A DNA stretch of 64,000 bases. It comes from Anaerofustis stercorihominis DSM 17244. Lineage in GTDB: Bacteria > Bacillota > Clostridia > Eubacteriales > Anaerofustaceae. Numbering within the stretch: position 1 is the first letter of the stretch; each line of letters opens with the position of its first letter. Shown here piece by piece: positions 8,237-20,863 of the stretch. The translations under genes were made by a program, and so were the position numbers. The DNA lies in NCBI RefSeq assembly GCF_000154825.1, contig NZ_DS560015.1, positions 149,052-213,051 on the forward strand, written 5' to 3'. The notes below the pieces were generated by a model. That model was not told where the DNA came from, did not search any database, and worked only from the letters and a program-made list of their open reading frames with translations.

Positions 8237-9589
8237 ATGAAGAAGAAAGATATTATTGAACTTGATATAAAAGAAAGGATTTCCATGGATAAATCCATGG
8301 GGTTTTACGACGATAAGAAAGTAATAGTAAAAGGAGGACTTCCCGGACAAACCGCGGAAGTGTTCGTAAAGAAAGTAAGAAAGAACAGAGCGGAAGGAAA
8401 TATAAACAGCATAATAAAAAAAGCGGATTATGAAATAGAGCCTATTTGCGATAAATTCAACATTTGCGGAGGCTGTTCTTTTCAAAATATCACTTACGAA
8501 AAACAGCTTGAGTTTAAGGAAGAATATATAAAGGGGCTGTTTGATAAAGCGGGGATAGAATACAAAGAATTTCTGCCTATCCTTTCGTCTCCTAAGGATA
8601 CGGAGTATCGTAACAAGATGGAGTTTTCTTTCGGGGATATGGAAAAGGACGGACCTTTGTGTCTCGGTATGCATGAAAAAGGCAAGCACCATAATATAGT
8701 TTCAACAGATAACTGTCATATTGTAGACGGAGATTACAGAAGCATATTAAGCAAAACTTTGGAGTATTTTACCCATAAGAAAATAAAACATTATAATAAA
8801 TTTTCCAAAGAAGGAACTCTTCGCCATTTGGTAATAAGAAAAGCGATGTACACAGGACAGATACTCGTGAATTTAGTAACCACATCTCAGGAAAAAATAA
8901 ACATAGAAGAGTATAAAGATTTGCTTCTTGAATTAAATTTAGACGGAGAAATAGTCGGTATACTCCACACTATCAATGACTCGTTTTCGGACGCCGTAAT
9001 AGCAGATGAAGTAAAAATCATCTATGGAAGAGATTATATAATGGAAAAATGTTTGGGACTTGATTTTAAGATTTCCGCCTTTTCATTTTTCCAGACGAAT
9101 ACTCTCGGAAGTGAAGTGTTATATTCCGTAGTCAAAGATTTTATCGGGGAAGAAAAGAGTGATGTGATACTGGATTTATACTGCGGTACAGGAACTATCA
9201 CTCAAATACTAAGTGATAAAGCAAATGAAGTGTATGGAATAGAAATAGTTGAAGAAGCTATCGAAGCGGCAAAAATCAATGCGGAACTTAACAATATAGA
9301 TAACTGCAGGTTTATCTGCGGAGATGTCCTCGAAGAAGTGGATAAAATAGATGTGAAATCCGACCTTATAATCTTGGATCCTCCTCGTGCGGGTATTCAT
9401 CCAAAGGCAATAGATAAAATCATTTCGTTTAAGCCGAAGAAATTCGTATATGTAAGCTGCAAAGCTACGTCATTAATAAGAGATTTACCTTTCTTTATCG
9501 AAGCGGGGTATGAAGTGGATAAGGTAAGAGCCGTGGATATGTTCCCGCAGACGGGGCATGTGGAGACGGTAGTATTATTAACAAAATAA
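8237..9589 (+). CDS. rlmD: 23S rRNA (uracil-5-)-methyltransferase, RlmD/RlmCD family
   Basis: 450 residues. An N-terminal TRAM-like region is followed by the 4Fe-4S cysteines C71, C77, C80 and C160, a SAM-binding motif LDLYCGTGTITQ, the ILDPPRAG motif and the catalytic Cys408 in YVSCKATSL. This matches the TrmA/RlmC/RlmD family that makes 5-methyluridine in 23S rRNA using SAM. In low-GC Gram-positives one enzyme (RlmCD) often makes both modifications, so the exact target base is uncertain. It is followed by the interrupted methyltransferase gene at 9625, with only 35 bases between. Confidence 0.92.
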   Translation: MKKKDIIELDIKERISMDKSMGFYDDKKVIVKGGLPGQTAEVFVKKVRKNRAEGNINSIIKKADYEIEPICDKFNICGGCSFQNITYEKQLEFKEEYIKGLFDKAGIEYKEFLPILSSPKDTEYRNKMEFSFGDMEKDGPLCLGMHEKGKHHNIVSTDNCHIVDGDYRSILSKTLEYFTHKKIKHYNKFSKEGTLRHLVIRKAMYTGQILVNLVTTSQEKINIEEYKDLLLELNLDGEIVGILHTINDSFSDAVIADEVKIIYGRDYIMEKCLGLDFKISAFSFFQTNTLGSEVLYSVVKDFIGEEKSDVILDLYCGTGTITQILSDKANEVYGIEIVEEAIEAAKINAELNNIDNCRFICGDVLEEVDKIDVKSDLIILDPPRAGIHPKAIDKIISFKPKKFVYVSCKATSLIRDLPFFIEAGYEVDKVRAVDMFPQTGHVETVVLLTK

Positions 9590-9624: not shown

Positions 9625-10067
9625 ATGAGTAGCACAAACAAAAAGCTAATAAATTATATAAAGAATAAACCTGATGTATATGAAAAGAGCACGTCCGCAT
9701 TTTGGGATGATGAAAATATATCTAAGTATATGTTAGAAGAGCATATAAATCCAGAGTCCGAGGGTGCGACCAGAAATCATAAATTTATAAAGAAGTCAGC
9801 TGATTGGATCAGCGGATTATTAGGTGACACGAAAAATAAAAAGTTATTGGATTTAGGATGTGGACCCGGGATATATGATGAACTTTTTTATAAAAACGGA
9901 TTTAATGTTACGGGGATAGATTTTTCTAAGCGTTCCATTGAATATGCAAAAAAGCATGCAAAAGAAAAAGGTATTAATATAAAATATCATTATAAAAATT
10001 ATTTGGATATAGATTATGAAGAAAAATTTGACATTGCGGTCTTGATTTACTGTGACTTTGGAGTCCT
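9625..10067 (+). pseudogene. SAM-dependent methyltransferase, 5' half, interrupted by transposon
   Basis: The first 147 codons encode a class I methyltransferase N-terminus with SAM-binding LLDLGCGPGIYDE (near residue 73) and the acidic GIDFSKRSI. The frame breaks at base 10067 where the GC-rich mobile element begins; reading on into the element gives an unrelated tail that stops at 10152. The remainder of the gene lies at 20464-20863. Joining the two sides at the shared GTCCT gives the continuous frame FGVLHPKDRE. A ribosome binding site within GTTCCGAGGAAC precedes the ATG. Confidence 0.9.
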
Positions 10068-10070
10068 GCC

Positions 10071-11963
10071 TCAGTCGGTCATTTTTTGCGGACAGTTCAA
10101 TACATACTGTCTTTTTCTTTCCCTGCTCCTGCGTTTCGTTTCTGTCCCTTGAACCTTTCTTATCTTTCCCCTGCACTCTGGACAATACTTCGATATTGCG
10201 GAGTGGGGGACGTATTCAACACCGCACACTGTACAATTCTTAGGCTTTAATGCTGTCCACCGCTTTGTGGGTGTGATATGTAATTCACCGACAAAGCCGA
10301 TGAATTTATAGTAAATCTTGATTTCCTGCTTCACTGTTCCGTCCACTGACTTCTCACGCTCTGAAACAAGTATCTTGTCTATCAGTGCATTTACCACTGT
10401 TGCGTCCAGTTCCTTTAAGCCTTGATAGTTGCGGATAAGGGAGAGGAAGTCACGGATTCCCTGCGATTTCTCGTAGCTTTCATTAAGAGTTTCCGTTACC
10501 TCTTTCAATCTCGCTTCGATTTCAAGCTGTTCTTTCTGGTATTTCCCCGACATCATTTCATAATTCCGCTCGGTAATACGCTCCATGACCTTATCCTCAT
10601 AGAGAGAGGAAAACAGCCTGTCAAGCTCCGCAAGACGTTTGTTTAGTTTCTTCCGTTCCTTTTCCAGTGCCTTTGCCCTGCTCTGGTCTGTTTCCGTGAG
10701 CCGCTTCTCAATCGCCCTCACCGCCCGCTCGTCATTCACCGCCATATCCGCAAAGCGGTTAATGTCGGCAAGGACGGCGTTGAACAAATCCCTTGCTTCA
10801 ATAGAGTGTGCGGTACACATGACGTTGCCGTACCTGCCATAATTATTGCAGGTATATTGTACGCAGTCGATAATGTCGGGGCGTTTCCTCCTGTTTGCGC
10901 TCATAGCCCGCAGAGCATAGCCGCAGTCCGCACACTTGATAATGCCTGCAAAAATATTCTCAAAGTCGCCCTTATTCTTTTCCCGTCTGCGGCTCGTCAT
11001 AAGCTGTTGGACAGTATCAAATTCTTCTTGTGTGACTATGCCCTCATGGGTGTCGGGGATCACTTCCCATTCTTCTGGCAGCTTGGACGGTCTTTTCTTG
11101 CTTTTCATATTGGCGGCAATCCGCTTGTAGCCTGCAAGGTTTCCCGCATAGATAGGGCTTCTTAAAATATTCCTCAAGCTGTTCTCACTCCATATATAGC
11201 GGTTTTCTTCGTTGTCCTCAAAGTATCTCTCATAGCCTGCCGCCCCCTGCTCCGCCGCATAAGCGGCAGGGCGTAAAACGTGCTGGCTGTTGATGTGCTT
11301 ACGGATTTTTCCAAGTCCGTTTCCTGCCAATGCAAGGTCAAATATCTCCCTTACAACGTGCGCTACTTTATCGTCAATCAGCAGATGGTTGTGGTCGGCA
11401 GGGTCTTTGATATATCCATAGGGTGCATATGTCCCCATGAATTTTCCCTGCTGAAACCTCGCACGGTACGCCGATTTTATCTTGACCGACACATCGGCTG
11501 AATACATTTCGTTTAGGATGTTGCGGAATGGGGTGATGTCCATCGCTGATTTATTTAGCGTGTCCACGCCGTCATTGACCGCTATATACCTCACATTATG
11601 CTCTGGGAAAAAGACTTCCAGATATAAGCCGCAGTCAAGGTAATTCCTCCCTAAACGTGATAAATCTTTCGTAATCACGCAGTTTATCAGCCCGTTTTCA
11701 ATGTCCTTAATCATGTTCTGGAAGCTCGGTCTTTGGAAATTCGTACCAGAGTAACCGTCGTCCACATACGTTTTTGCCAGATGCCAGCCCTGCTTTTTCA
11801 CATAATCCGTGAGGATGGATTTCTGTGTGGCAATGCTCGCACTCTCATTATCCGTCCCATCATCCTTTGACAAGCGGCAGTAAATGCCGACTAAATAGAT
11901 TTTCTTTTCTTCTTTGATTCCTGCCATACTGTTAAACTCCGTATCTGCCCTAACTGTTTTCAT
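10071..11963 (-). CDS. Large serine recombinase (TnpX/TndX-like transposase)
   Basis: 630 residues from the first ATG. The N-terminal resolvase domain has the catalytic Ser32 in YCRLSKDDG and the conserved ITKDLSRLGRNYLD. It is followed by a recombinase domain (about 190-300), a zinc-ribbon with CADCGYALRAM, a coiled coil of Lys/Glu-rich sequence and a C-terminal zinc-finger-like CxxC...CPEC pair. It excises and inserts the element by site-specific recombination. The stop codon is only about four bases from the left boundary. ATG 11927 (residue 13) has a better-placed GGAG and may be the real start. Confidence 0.93.
   Translation of the reverse strand: MKTVRADTEFNSMAGIKEEKKIYLVGIYCRLSKDDGTDNESASIATQKSILTDYVKKQGWHLAKTYVDDGYSGTNFQRPSFQNMIKDIENGLINCVITKDLSRLGRNYLDCGLYLEVFFPEHNVRYIAVNDGVDTLNKSAMDITPFRNILNEMYSADVSVKIKSAYRARFQQGKFMGTYAPYGYIKDPADHNHLLIDDKVAHVVREIFDLALAGNGLGKIRKHINSQHVLRPAAYAAEQGAAGYERYFEDNEENRYIWSENSLRNILRSPIYAGNLAGYKRIAANMKSKKRPSKLPEEWEVIPDTHEGIVTQEEFDTVQQLMTSRRREKNKGDFENIFAGIIKCADCGYALRAMSANRRKRPDIIDCVQYTCNNYGRYGNVMCTAHSIEARDLFNAVLADINRFADMAVNDERAVRAIEKRLTETDQSRAKALEKERKKLNKRLAELDRLFSSLYEDKVMERITERNYEMMSGKYQKEQLEIEARLKEVTETLNESYEKSQGIRDFLSLIRNYQGLKELDATVVNALIDKILVSEREKSVDGTVKQEIKIYYKFIGFVGELHITPTKRWTALKPKNCTVCGVEYVPHSAISKYCPECRGKIRKVQGTETKRRSRERKRQYVLNCPQKMTD
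10082..10100 (+). repeat. Left terminal inverted repeat of the transposon
   Basis: TTTTTTGCGGACAGTTCAA here matches the reverse complement of the right end near 20440-20455 (TTTTGCGGACATTCAA) with one gap. It lies inside the last codons of the recombinase gene. Confidence 0.75.
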
Positions 11964-12541: not shown

Positions 12542-13396
12542 TTAGCGGCTGTCCCTGCCCCGTTTCCTCTGCAATTCACGCTCCAAAAGCTTGATGATGG
12601 TGTCCTCCATCTGCTTCGGCGTTGTGCCTTTCGGGAAATATTTTTTTAACCGCTCCATGCCGATTTTCACGGTTTCTTTCTGGTTTCCCTTTTCCTCCGT
12701 CATAATGGAAAATATCATATCCATGTCAAGCCGCCCGCTCTGGCTCAAGGTTTTCATCCGCTGTGCCTGTGAGAGTGAGGGCGTTGCTTCCTCGCTTTCC
12801 ATCGTGGCGAATAAATTTTCCTGTTCCTCTTTCTTCAAAAAGGACAGCTCCACCGCAGGCGTGAGGGCGATTTTCCCCTCGTCCACCATCAGCAAAATCG
12901 GCGGTATCAGTTCCGTCAATCGGATAAATCTCTGCACGGTCATCCTGCCCACGCCGAAGCCCTGTGCCACTTTATCGTCCGTCCGCAACTTCGTCCCAAC
13001 TTGTGACGAGGTTAAATCTGTGCGGAAACCCTGCCGTTTCATGGCTTCAGATTTCATCTTGTAGGCAAACGCCCGCTCGCTCGGCAGGATATTTTCACGC
13101 TGTAAGTTGCTGTCTACAAGAGTGATAATGGCTCGGTCACGGTCTAAGGGCAGGACAAAAGCGGGGATTGTGTTTATCCCTGCAAGCTCCGAAGCACGGA
13201 CACGCCGCTGTCCCGCAATGATTTCATATCCGTCCCCGTCCTCTTTCGGGCGTGTAATTATCGGCGTTACGATTCCAAATTCCTTAATGCTTTCCGCTAA
13301 CTCTGACAGCATTTCATTCTCCACCACATGAAAAGGGTTGTCTGGAAATGGGTACAAATCTGAGGTCTTTAATACCTTAAAATCCTGTTTCTTCAT
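12542..13396 (-). CDS. ParB/RepB/Spo0J family partition-like protein
   Basis: 284 residues. The N-terminal ParB domain is clear: LYPFPDNPFH, LAESIKEFGIVTPI, IIAGQRRVRASELAG and ILPSERAFAYKMK, followed by a KorB-type HTH with KVAQGFGVGRMTVQRFIRLTEL and a C-terminal helical region. In transposons of this type such a protein may regulate element genes or help maintain the circular form. It lies eight bases downstream of the relaxase gene in the same direction. Confidence 0.9.
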   Translation of the reverse strand: MKKQDFKVLKTSDLYPFPDNPFHVVENEMLSELAESIKEFGIVTPIITRPKEDGDGYEIIAGQRRVRASELAGINTIPAFVLPLDRDRAIITLVDSNLQRENILPSERAFAYKMKSEAMKRQGFRTDLTSSQVGTKLRTDDKVAQGFGVGRMTVQRFIRLTELIPPILLMVDEGKIALTPAVELSFLKKEEQENLFATMESEEATPSLSQAQRMKTLSQSGRLDMDMIFSIMTEEKGNQKETVKIGMERLKKYFPKGTTPKQMEDTIIKLLERELQRKRGRDSR

Positions 13397-13404
13397 TCAC
13401 ATTC

Positions 13405-14370
13405 CTACCTTTCTTTCGCTCTGTTCCAATTACTTTTCTGCAATTCTTCCAATACCTCTGGCGGGATTTTGGAGAGCAGCCGCCCCATCTGCTCGTTGGT
13501 TTTCTGCAACTCAAATATCCTCTGGTTTGCTTTCTGTACCTTTAGTTCCTGCTCGTACTTTTCATCACGCATACGCCCCGCATAATCGGATTCCTGCCCG
13601 ATTCTCTCTTTCAAGCTGTCGATATACGCCTGCTGTCTCCCGATTTCCTTAGAAAATTTCTCCACGTCTGGAAGCCATGCGGAGAGCAGTTCTAACGCCT
13701 TATCTCTTTTCTTGCCTGCATTAAAGGCGTTGATGTCGGAGAGGGCAGACACGATTTCCGCATACTGTTTATCCAGCCTGCTGCCCAACTTATAGAGCCA
13801 TGTGGGGATGTGTTTCCGCTTCGTTTCCATTGAGGACTGCCCCCGTTCAAGCTGATTCCACCGTGCGGACATCCGCTCATGGTAGGCGGTCTGCCACTCG
13901 GATAAGGATTTCTGGTTGCCTAAAATGGACTTTGCTGATAGCTTGTTGTCGGGCGTAAGCGGCACAAAGCATAGGTGCATATGGGGCGTTTTCTCGTCCA
14001 TATGGATGACTGCGGAGAGGATATTCCTCTTTCCCACACGCTCCGAAATGAAGTCAAGAGCCGTCTGGAAATAGGCTTTTTGTTCTTCGGGCGGTAAGCT
14101 GTTCATAAATTCTGGCGAAGCGGTGATGAGCGTTTCCACCATCATCACGCTGTCTTTCCTCACTTTACATCCCGCCTCGGCTACCATTCGGTTTATCTCT
14201 TTTTTGTAGGTGTAACGGGGCGGATTCACAAGATGATAGTTATCTTTGGAGCGTTCCATATCAATATCAGGGTTGCTTTTATAGGCTTCTTTCTTCCGCT
14301 CGTTGTGGCGTTCGCAAGACGCAACGCCGCCTGCTTTACGTTTCTGGAAACGCAGGATTGCATAGGGCAT
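13405..14370 (-). CDS. MobV-type relaxase (plasmid recombination/mobilisation protein, TnpZ-like)
   Basis: 321 residues. The N-terminal Pre/Mob domain has the metal-binding HMDEKTPHMHLCFVP motif near residue 122 and typical YTYKKEINRMV and SAKSILGNQKSLSEWQ blocks. The C-terminal third (about 210-310) is a charged coiled coil. MobV relaxases nick an oriT and lead the strand into a recipient with help from a co-resident conjugative element. The noncoding DNA immediately upstream, 14371-14707, is the natural place for its oriT. Confidence 0.92.
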   Translation of the reverse strand: MPYAILRFQKRKAGGVASCERHNERKKEAYKSNPDIDMERSKDNYHLVNPPRYTYKKEINRMVAEAGCKVRKDSVMMVETLITASPEFMNSLPPEEQKAYFQTALDFISERVGKRNILSAVIHMDEKTPHMHLCFVPLTPDNKLSAKSILGNQKSLSEWQTAYHERMSARWNQLERGQSSMETKRKHIPTWLYKLGSRLDKQYAEIVSALSDINAFNAGKKRDKALELLSAWLPDVEKFSKEIGRQQAYIDSLKERIGQESDYAGRMRDEKYEQELKVQKANQRIFELQKTNEQMGRLLSKIPPEVLEELQKSNWNRAKER

Positions 14371-14707
14371 AATTCATCTTCCTTTCTTTCGGCGGGTAAC
14401 TGTCGCTTCCTGTCTTTGGTGCGTGACGGTCATGACGGTGATGACGGTGTTTTTGGTATACCCCCTCATAAGAGCCGTAACCGTCACGCCGACATTCTTT
14501 TATCCGAAGCGGAAAGCGTAGGATAAGCAGGGCAAAGCCCTGCCATAAGGGAGTCCAGAGGGAACGTCTGGCACACGACTTTGCAGGGCAAAGTGTAGTG
14601 TGTTACACCCTGTAAACGCAGTCGGAAAAATCAGAAGATTTTTCTGACCGCAGGGGTGGCATTACGAGCCGAAAAGGGCGAGTAATGCCCACGCCTGCAT
14701 GTTGCGT
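14371..14707. other. Noncoding region upstream of relaxase, candidate oriT
   Basis: 337 bases with no gene. It contains one arm of a 42-bp inverted repeat and several short palindromes, for example GCAGGGCAAAGCCCTGC near 14528 and GTGTAGTGTGTTACAC near 14600. Position before a MobV relaxase makes it the likely transfer origin, but the nick site cannot be read directly. Confidence 0.5.
14424..14465 (+). repeat. 42-bp inverted repeat, left arm
   Basis: Begins TGACGGTCATGACGG and ends TTTGGTATACCCCC. The reverse complement of 14742-14783 matches it at 40 of 42 positions. Confidence 0.85.
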
Positions 14708-15760
14708 TTACGGGGTGTTCTCCCGTAGGGATGACAGCGGCGGGGGTATCCCAAAAACACCGTCATCATCGTCATGACCGTCATCCTCCACATCTTCCTG
14801 CCTTGCAAGGGAAATCATCCGCCCGCTGCTCCTGCGGCTGAAATCATAGCGGATATGGTTTTCAAGCAGGAAATCAAGGCGGTACTCGTTCATCCACTTC
14901 GTCAATACATTCGCCGCTGTCCCTGTTTCCCCCAGAGCGTCCAATAATTCCGTTGCCGTTCCAGTCCATTCCTCCCTGCCTTGCATGAAATCCACTAACC
15001 GAAAGAGAATATCTGGTATCGCTTCTTTGGCAAGCTGTTCCTGTTCTTTCCTCTCCACCAGTTCCCAACTGCAATCACGGAAACGGAGCGTAAACTCCTG
15101 ATAAGGCGTGTCCCTGCCCGTCACATACAGCTTGGCGGCATTGGATGCACGGCTTTCCTGTTCCAGAACAAAGGTTGCGTCTGCACTCCCTGTCAATCCC
15201 GTCGTGCCAGACACTTTGTTGAACACGTCGCTGTCATTCTGCTTTCGGATGTGGTGTACGACAATGACCGCCAATGAGTGCCTATCGGCAAAGTCTTTGA
15301 TAAGGGAGATGTCCCCGTAATCGCTTGCATAGGCATTGTCTTTGGATGCGGTGCGGATTTTCTGCAAGGTGTCAATGACAATGAGCCTGCTGTCGGGGCA
15401 TTCTTTCAGATAATCCTCCAACTGCACGATAAGACCGTCTGACAGCTTATCGCTTGCCACGGCAAAGTGAAGCCGCCCGCTTGCTTCGTCCGTCAAGCGG
15501 AACAGCCTGTCCTGTATGCGGCAGAAGGTATCCTCCAAACAGAGGTAAAACACGTCGCCCTCCTGTGTCGGCATATCCCACAAGGGGATTCCCTGCGACA
15601 CGCATAGGCAGAGCTTTAACATGAGCCAGCTCTTGCCGATTTTCTGTGAGCCGCAGAACAGGGTTAAGCCCGTGGGTATCAGACCGTCCACCACAAAGGA
15701 CGGCTTCTCAAGTGGCTCATAGAGGAGCGTGTCGGCGCTGACTGTCTGAAGCTTCTGCAT
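14708..15760 (-). CDS. RepA-like AAA/RecA-fold ATPase
   Basis: 350 residues from the ATG at 15760, chosen because AAAGGAGG precedes it; an upstream ATG at 15991 is unsupported. The RecA-like core has Walker A FCGSQKIGKSW near residue 36, Walker B RLIVIDTLQKI and IVVHHIRK, as in hexameric RepA/primase-associated helicases (AAA_25). The C-terminal part (about 250-320) looks like a winged helix (TGTATELLDALGE). It may unwind or help replicate the circular form of the element. Its acidic last residues are encoded in an inverted repeat arm. Confidence 0.86.
   Translation of the reverse strand: MQKLQTVSADTLLYEPLEKPSFVVDGLIPTGLTLFCGSQKIGKSWLMLKLCLCVSQGIPLWDMPTQEGDVFYLCLEDTFCRIQDRLFRLTDEASGRLHFAVASDKLSDGLIVQLEDYLKECPDSRLIVIDTLQKIRTASKDNAYASDYGDISLIKDFADRHSLAVIVVHHIRKQNDSDVFNKVSGTTGLTGSADATFVLEQESRASNAAKLYVTGRDTPYQEFTLRFRDCSWELVERKEQEQLAKEAIPDILFRLVDFMQGREEWTGTATELLDALGETGTAANVLTKWMNEYRLDFLLENHIRYDFSRRSSGRMISLARQEDVEDDGHDDDDGVFGIPPPLSSLRENTP
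14742..14783 (-). repeat. 42-bp inverted repeat, right arm
   Basis: Partner of 14424-14465, separated by 276 bases. This arm lies within the 3' end of the ATPase gene, where it encodes the acidic stretch DDGHDDDDGVFGIPP. Confidence 0.85.
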
Positions 15761-15912
15761 GGGATTCCTCCTTTCGGGCGGTGTCTTTGGTTTTGTTACG
15801 CATAGGCGTGACCTCCTTAAAATAGATTTACTCCCACAAAAAGAAGTGAGAGTATGTAATACCGCCAGTCCCACGCAAAACGGATTTCTTTTTCGGGCAG
15901 TAGTCGTCAAGG

Positions 15913-20035: not shown

Positions 20036-20410
20036 CTATGCAAAGATAATTTCCTTGTTCACAATCTCCCTCGCACACGCCCTTATGTTATTCATTCTTC
20101 CTGTCCATTCTAAGGCGTTTTCTGCCTTTAGCTGTTCTGTGATACCCTGTGTCTGTTTCATGCCCTTTATGAGCCTTTCAAAGTGTTCCTGCGCCTGCCT
20201 GTCAATGTCGGCAAGATAAGCGTTGAGCCTGCCGCTTGTAAGAAGATTGATGTATGTAACCTTTCGGTACTTCTTCAGATAGTCCAGATGCCGCTGTCCC
20301 CATGTGCCTATCGGCTGTTCTTCTCCGGCGGGTACGGTTAAGCACGGGATTAAGTAATCTCCTTGCCGCTCGTATTTGCCGCCCAGTTCCTCAAATAATG
20401 ATTTTGCCAT
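20036..20410 (-). CDS. tnpV: TnpV family transposon protein
   Basis: 124 residues. MAKSLFEELGGKYERQGDYL and the block GTWGQRHLDYLKKYRKVTYI are characteristic of TnpV, found in Tn4451/Tn4453-type transposons, where it has been considered a possible excision accessory protein. It lies next to the right end of the element, opposite the recombinase at the left end, so the two genes are adjacent in the circular form. Confidence 0.9.
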   Translation of the reverse strand: MAKSLFEELGGKYERQGDYLIPCLTVPAGEEQPIGTWGQRHLDYLKKYRKVTYINLLTSGRLNAYLADIDRQAQEHFERLIKGMKQTQGITEQLKAENALEWTGRMNNIRACAREIVNKEIIFA

Positions 20411-20439: not shown

Positions 20440-20455
20440 TTGAATGTCCGCAAAA
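20440..20455 (-). repeat. Right terminal inverted repeat of the transposon
   Basis: TTGAATGTCCGCAAAA, whose reverse complement resembles the left end. It is followed by GTCCT at the junction with host DNA. Coordinates could be off by one. Confidence 0.7.
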
Positions 20456-20463
20456 TCCGTCCT

Positions 20464-20863
20464 ACATCCTAAAGACAGAGAGGTTATTTTAACAAAGGCA
20501 AGAAAAGCTTTAAAACAAGGCGGACTTTTGATTTTAGATGGTTTCACAATGAAATTTATTGATGATTTTGAAGAGAAAGAGATCATTGAATACAATAAAT
20601 ACGGCTTTTGGTCAGAGAAAGAACATGCATGTATTCAGCGCAACCACATATATCAAGACACCTTAAATACTTTGGAGCAGTATTTGGTTATAACCGAAGA
20701 AGATATTGAATGTTATAATATTTGGAATCAGGTATTTACAAAAGAGTCTATCGTGTCTGAAATTAAAAATGCTGGTTTTGAAAATATTGATTTATATGAT
20801 GATGTGGCAGGCAAATCTTATTCCGGTAAAGATAAAACAATTTGTGTTGTCGCTGGGAAATAA
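20464..20863 (+). pseudogene. SAM-dependent methyltransferase, 3' half
   Basis: Continues the gene begun at 9625: LHPKDREVILTKARKALKQG then GLLILDGFT, the usual motif IV-VI region of class I methyltransferases, to the stop at 20863. An apparent ATG at 20444 lies in the transposon end and is not a native start. The AT-rich composition matches the 5' half. Precise excision using one GTCCT copy would restore an intact protein of about 280 residues. Confidence 0.9.

Follow-up and report, generated by a model that had tools for sequence, protein, structure and literature searches.

The window, the whole stretch of 64,000 nucleotides (64 kb) analyzed here, contains an element with genes for a large serine recombinase (10071..11963), a ParB-like protein (12542..13396), a MobV relaxase (Mob_Pre; 13405..14370), an ATPase of the AAA_25 family (14708..15763) and TnpV (20036..20410), all on the minus strand. 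The element also encodes three sigma-region-4-like proteins, one of which falls under the Pfam cut-off. The ATPase is RepA/DnaB-like, has a C-terminal winged-helix-like domain and is the proposed binder of the iterons described below. Its frame as used here starts one codon ahead of the likely ATG, and NCBIfam returned no family for it. A large serine recombinase, TnpV (a Tn4451-linked protein) and a MobV relaxase are the features by which a Tn4451-type element is recognized, and all three are present. In the available part of the account of the Tn4451/Tn4453 family (PMC5704250), a large serine recombinase and a MobV relaxase are found as they are here, a likeness of gene content. A SAM-methyltransferase frame (9625-10152 and 20444-20863) is apparently split by the element, and the words GCGGACA and TGTCCGC lie near its two ends.

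A preliminary description of this DNA had reported a 42-bp inverted repeat enclosing 276 bases beside the MobV gene, with smaller palindromes in the enclosed DNA and one arm coding for the Asp-rich end of the ATPase, and each of these observations is borne out. Between the arms, at 14424-14465 and 14742-14783, 40 of the 42 positions match; the longest perfect run is 18, and the match can be extended to 49 nt at 90%. Flanking the enclosed DNA are the 3' end of the ATPase gene and mob, both read on the minus strand, and the right arm codes for the tail of the ATPase in the window. Scored at +1/−2 with arms at most 420 bp apart, the repeat reaches 36, against a best score of 12 in 60 dinucleotide shuffles of 13800-15400. 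Nine inverted repeats with a perfect 14-mer and arms within 500 bp are present in the window; in this listing the repeat spans 33 nt with 1 internal mismatch, and the other eight span 14-19 nt. No second copy of the region was found at E 0.001 in a search of the 2.28-Mb genome. An Rfam search of 14000-15200 gave a chance snoRNA match alone (21 bits vs a gathering threshold of 48), and a terminator scan of 14300-14900 gave one weak site, at 14391-14407, outside the arms.

Facing iteron units in the window and its relatives

Each arm is a unit of three TGAC iterons at 9-bp steps, followed by a conserved box with the family consensus TTTTGGGATACCCC. In the window, the left array (arm 1) occupies 14424..14449 on the plus strand and is followed by the box TTTTGGTATACCCC at 14451..14464 on the same strand. 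The right array (arm 2) occupies 14758..14783 on the minus strand, with its box GGGGTATCCCAAAA at 14743..14756, also minus. The right array also codes for the Asp-rich ATPase tail, which is predicted to be disordered. On the inner side of each box a single inverted iteron is seen in the sequence, at 14480..14487 on the minus strand (ACCGTCAC on plus) and at 14732..14737 on the plus strand (TGACAG). Throughout the 64-kb window, the word TGAC-N5-TGAC is confined to 14424 and 14433 on the plus strand, and its reverse, GTCA-N5-GTCA, to 14762 and 14771.

The same arrangement is found in relatives. Across 72 distinct regions, the window included, every recognized unit faces inward, units flank both sides of the transfer origin (oriT) in 70, and their distances to the predicted nick are nearly fixed. 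One unit on each side is present in 39 regions, one on the left and two on the right in 21, and two on each side in 10. The two regions without a recognized left unit are L053, which a contig end truncates, and the first copy in L072. Elsewhere in these loci no recognized units were found, except in L072, which holds two copies. A comparison of 144 units drawn from 57 loci shows conservation of 95-100% in the TGAC cores of the second and third iterons and of 94-100% at 12 of the 14 box positions (the second at 75%, the fifth at 90%), with variation at other positions. Iteron 1 shows only 79-81% in-register conservation, owing to a 1-bp shift in a subset. The loci compared share ancestry, and since the unit search demanded the box (with at most 4 changes) and two iteron-like words, these percentages are partly built in. 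A search that did not require this motif, which addresses the presence of the repeats and not their conservation percentages, found a left TGAC pair and a right GTCA pair in 65 of 65 distinct regions. Wrong-way pairs were rarer, with a left GTCA pair in 10 of the 65 and a right TGAC pair in none. Poor conservation of the arms in sister elements, which the preliminary description had named among the things that would speak against its reading, is not what is observed, given the iteron pairs on both sides of all 65 regions.

Locus L072 carries two oriT cassettes, at 9034 (+) and 6309 (−), neither with a Mob match within 4 kb. Its second cassette has facing units, though the nearest ATPase match belongs to the neighboring copy.

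As judged from these comparisons, the evidence favors binding sites over a functional hairpin. If the arms acted as a hairpin or panhandle, they would pair in the single-stranded transferred DNA, joining its ends, or form a cruciform around oriT. The 360-nt region 14424-14783, folded as single-stranded DNA, does reach z = −16.6, with 0 of 100 shuffles equally low, and the arms match at 50 of 50 positions in L083 and 46 of 46 in L061. Over all 57 loci, multi-unit loci included, a locus's own arms differ at 7.3 positions, against 9.2 when permuted (0 of 2000 as low), so that some concerted change exists. Conversely, among the 32 loci that have a single unit on either side, the own arms differ at 8.8 of 46 positions and permuted arms at 9.5, which is not significant (190 of 2000 as low). 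The arms of L049, L059 and L066 have diverged at 12-13 of 46 positions, with the first iteron shifted by 1 bp, yet the TGAC cores are kept; overall, some arms differ at 12-15 positions, some of them with a shifted register, and again retain the cores. Transition mismatches between arms favor G.T on the transferred strand (104 vs 39, counts that are not independent), which is weak evidence for pairing and is reported here without being relied upon. Moreover, facing iterons are retained at distant helicase loci whose fetched sequence contains no TAGTGTGTTA oriT. We consider a functional hairpin unlikely, and the near-perfect complementarity of the arms appears to be mostly a by-product of two similar sites that face each other.

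We also considered whether the right arm is kept for the Asp-rich tail of the ATPase, and rejected this explanation, as the tail is unconserved as well as predicted to be disordered and the arm persists outside the frame. In 87 of 89 entries the ATPase stop codon falls at +104 to +313 relative to the nick. The frame ends short of the right arm in L061 and L083, where the arm is nonetheless perfect.

The enclosed transfer origin and its orientation

By its sequence motifs, the enclosed DNA is a MOBV-type oriT with a predicted nick site. An IR1 hairpin with a 7-bp stem (ACTTTGC AGG GCAAAGT; 14578..14594, plus strand), conserved in relatives and with the architecture of the pMV158 IR1, lies just upstream of the predicted nick region TAGTGTG/TTA (14596..14605, plus strand), in which the cut is expected between 14602 and 14603. 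The element itself encodes a Mob_Pre relaxase. The word TAGTGTGTTA, the pMV158-type nick motif, occurs once in the 64-kb window, at this site, and 13 of 100 shuffles also contained at least one. The oriT core, allowing at most 2 changes in 17 positions, is present in 85 of 91 helicase loci; it is missing from L038, L039, L040, L062, L074 and L094, and no fewer than three of these six loci are truncated or distant. L062 holds a close relative of the helicase (96%) in a 10.5-kb locus without a recognizable oriT core.

The available parts of the published accounts give GTGTG/TT as the cleavage sequence of MobM (PMC5090054) and place an IR1 hairpin before the nick motif in the oriT of pMV158 (PMC5863519). 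The MOBV1 oriT of pMV158 and that of IMESag-rpsI, as far as these parts describe them, share with the window the order of IR1 and a GTGTG/TT-type nick motif, as well as an adjoining MobV relaxase gene (PMC5863519, PMC5090054). Within the same limits, the window differs from both in the three-way junction after the nick, in an oriT that is reversed relative to mob, and in the flanking iteron arrays. An oriT structure was among the explanations first offered for the repeat, and it applies to the enclosed DNA, which contains TAGTGTGTTA and IR1. For the arms it is not supported as first stated; these are not the oriT hairpin but copies of an iteron unit, and such iterons are found near distant helicases without this oriT motif.

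The orientation of the oriT is uniform in this family. Nick-bearing entries number 103, of which 87 have both Mob and ATPase, 3 the ATPase only, 2 Mob only and 11 neither. In all 87 entries with both genes, not all of them independent, the oriT has one orientation and mob lies opposite to the transferred strand. This is not the MOBV1 arrangement of pMV158, in which the mob coding strand is the transferred strand according to the available part of PMC5863519. In other clusters, 5 of 15 loci examined hold both oriT and Mob, each from another cluster, and in 5 of these 5 the transferred strand has Mob 3' of the nick, although for three the distance is 2.7-4.3 kb and Mob is perhaps not the partner. 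Sequence comparison thus points to a likely old flip of the oriT relative to other MOBV families.

The long inverted arms, and an oriT that is reversed relative to mob when compared with those five loci and with pMV158 (PMC5863519, in its available part), might suggest an invertible segment, one of the possibilities named in the preliminary description, which would switch the direction of oriT relative to mob. None of the 87 entries is reversed, a count drawn from entries that are not all independent and from assemblies that would hide a minor orientation, and we regard such a switch as very improbable. With one orientation in these entries and the opposite one in other clusters, the flip of the oriT seems to be a fixed state.

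The predicted three-way junction after the nick site

Folding predicts a three-way DNA junction of 114 bases (14605..14718, plus strand), with which the putative transferred strand would begin at its 5' end. Its closing stem pairs 14605-14620 with 14703-14718, and its two hairpins occupy 14621-14648 and 14650-14698 on the same strand. The junction starts two bases past the predicted nick, and the fold of 14603-14725 has a z of −9.4. In many family members the 14650-14698 hairpin has facing GA steps (CGAG/CGAG) that resemble tandem G-A pairs.

Eighteen sequence clusters carry the motif, and IR1 is present in 14 of them. Judged on one representative per cluster, a two-branch junction is found in 9 of the 14 IR1 clusters, with a closing stem of 10-17 bp that begins 1-4 nt after the nick. 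It is absent from the representatives of the other five, L007, L018, L026, L173 (pMut2 type) and L176. Four pattern matches without IR1 served as controls and gave z values of 0 to −1.4 on the transferred strand, one of them (L138) with a weak 6-bp two-branch fold. The fold is stronger on the transferred strand than on its complement in 11 of the 11 clusters with z below −4, the difference being small in two (−7.4 vs −6.9 in the window, −4.1 vs −3.9 in L014). Several clusters look related, and therefore the 11 structured clusters are not independent cases. The asymmetry holds with mob on either side, and for this reason we attribute it to selection acting on the transferred strand in its single-stranded state.

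Within the family of the window, 96.2% of cells are paired, against 38-53% when the partners are slid. Covariation in the junction is weak at this level (28 of 54 distinct sequences): 15 of 500 shuffles reach the covariation score and 173 of 500 the pair types. The case for the junction is accordingly made by the unlike clusters and not by covariation within the family. We propose that the junction is possibly a new structural part of the MOBV oriT, and the predicted fold may act in priming, as a single-stranded DNA promoter or otherwise in early expression, or by blocking re-ligation. A single-strand origin, which the preliminary description had considered for the repeat, is not supported for the 42-bp arms; on the folding model, it is the three-way junction that may be one.

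In L169 (4036), L170 (4036) and L172 (3036), oriT cores of other types were seen at a distance of about 0.4 kb from where aadE resistance genes end (3'), and tblastn with the Mob queries found no match within these loci. L169 and L172 belong to cluster L009, whose representative has the three-way junction.

Helicase relatives and the proposed split origin

The structural model of the ATPase (pLDDT 86.5) has a RecA-like core, for which the top structural rows are DnaB, RadA and RSF1010 RepA. The core aligns with RSF1010 RepA (1g8y) with Z 21.7 and rmsd 2.6 over 210 residues, and phmmer relates the two sequences at E 0.009; helicase matches were also obtained against PHROGs. The modeled fold thus resembles that of the hexameric helicase RSF1010 RepA in its RecA/DnaB-like core, DnaB rows scoring equally high. 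Unlike RSF1010 RepA, the ATPase has an extra C-terminal domain of 87 residues that is predicted to be winged-helix-like. For this domain VIA-align ranks CtsR-DNA, a Rep-DUE complex and RepE-iteron highest (Z 7.3-7.5; 7.3 for the RepE-iteron complex, 1rep), and these matches, with Z below 8 and Foldseek E above 0.01, may represent a common arrangement only. In RSF1010 the iterons are bound by RepC. As in an iteron origin, short in-phase direct repeats adjoin a replication-type gene here, helicase-like by its modeled fold and with a proposed role in replication.

Distant homologs of the ATPase are 32-50% identical to it, and many have facing 9-bp iterons at the 3' end of the gene; a TAGTGTGTTA-type oriT is absent from their fetched loci. 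In the first 16 distant loci, the 7,922 bp near the 3' end contain 24 copies of TGAC-N5-TGAC, and the other 65,568 bp contain 3. A second set of 26 loci, collected afterwards in a search for intermediate relatives, served as a check in which the motif was unchanged and gave 50 occurrences in 12,541 bp near the 3' end and 2 in 85,690 bp elsewhere. Both halves are present in 6 loci of the first set and 11 of the second, and the order is TGAC and then GTCA in 17 of 17, some of the distant loci being near-copies. The motif is missing near the 3' end of the gene in 7 of the 16 and 11 of the 26 loci (18 of 42). A period of 9 that 0 of 200 shuffles reached was found in 9 of 18 loci (2 of the main family and 7 of the 16 distant ones), and one that 0 of 100 shuffles reached in 11 of 25 loci of the further set. 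Among the 7 distant loci are two relatives on viral contigs, L039 and L040, in which the helicase gene is followed downstream by 9-bp iterons that differ in sequence (CCTTACACT and CCGCAACAC).

The left arm, which is located beside mob, tracks the ATPase and not Mob in a partial Mantel analysis of 43 loci (0.37, 0 of 999, vs −0.04, 659 of 999). This result could alternatively arise if the right arm, at the ATPase gene, were copied onto the left. The arms might also be sites of another factor, such as the ParB-like protein, or MobV as an accessory factor or autoregulator, and would then form, for example, a partition site or a mob operator. The ParB and Mob genes are indeed adjacent, and the left arm is only 54 bp upstream of the mob start. 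However, in the comparison with the ATPase and Mob, the variation of the left arm follows the ATPase instead of Mob. In addition, L039 has 9-bp iterons beside its helicase gene, while a tblastn search of its 10,966 bp at E 1e-4 found nothing matching the Mob, ParB or recombinase of the window. Recognition by another factor therefore seems to us rather improbable.

Since the distant helicases have facing iterons without the oriT motif, the most likely reading of the arms is that of a split iteron origin recognized by the helicase. On balance, we consider it probable that they are the two halves of the origin of the neighboring RepA/DnaB-like helicase, with a reversed MOBV oriT nested inside. 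We infer a possible course of events from this arrangement. The serine recombinase would excise the element, and the helicase, using its C-terminal winged-helix-like domain, would bind both sets of iterons, open the DNA between the arrays and load there. Once loaded, it would replicate the circular form, unwind the strand nicked by MobV, or both.

A related arrangement is found in Salmonella Genomic Island 1 (SGI1), in which, according to the available part of PMC7433901, an iteron oriV lies immediately downstream of a replication gene and the excised form replicates. SGI1 and the present element are both integrative mobilizable elements with iterons just downstream of a replication-type gene, replication being only proposed here. 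They differ, within the scope of the same source, in that SGI1 combines four direct iterons of 17 bp with an initiator of the RepA_C type, whereas the window has facing 9-bp arrays, a RepA/DnaB-like helicase and an oriT between the arrays.

A broader reading, which we offer tentatively as a genuine possibility, is that of a nested origin, the oriT lying within a split iteron replication origin, with one element-encoded initiator-helicase on both sides of the nick that would serve vegetative replication and strand transfer from one site. To this would be added, in many MOBV elements, an undescribed three-way junction that begins 1-4 nt past the nick, is under selection on the transferred strand and acts in the single strand, for example in priming, in early expression or in stopping re-joining. 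In the literature searched, mostly papers free of subscription and some of them available in part, we found no report of TGAC iterons around a MOBV oriT or of a three-way junction after the nick. If the helicase does use the iterons, such mobilizable elements would gain a recognizable origin, and a single site would couple their copy number to their transfer. A strand-specific junction after the nick would be a new and testable part of MOBV transfer origins.

Relatives of the helicase region are common, with 277 in one genome collection, of which the best 80 were kept. In L029, an Enterococcus faecalis plasmid record (LR962153.1), a copy of 13300-15800 that is 85.7% identical lies about 2.4 kb from tet(O).
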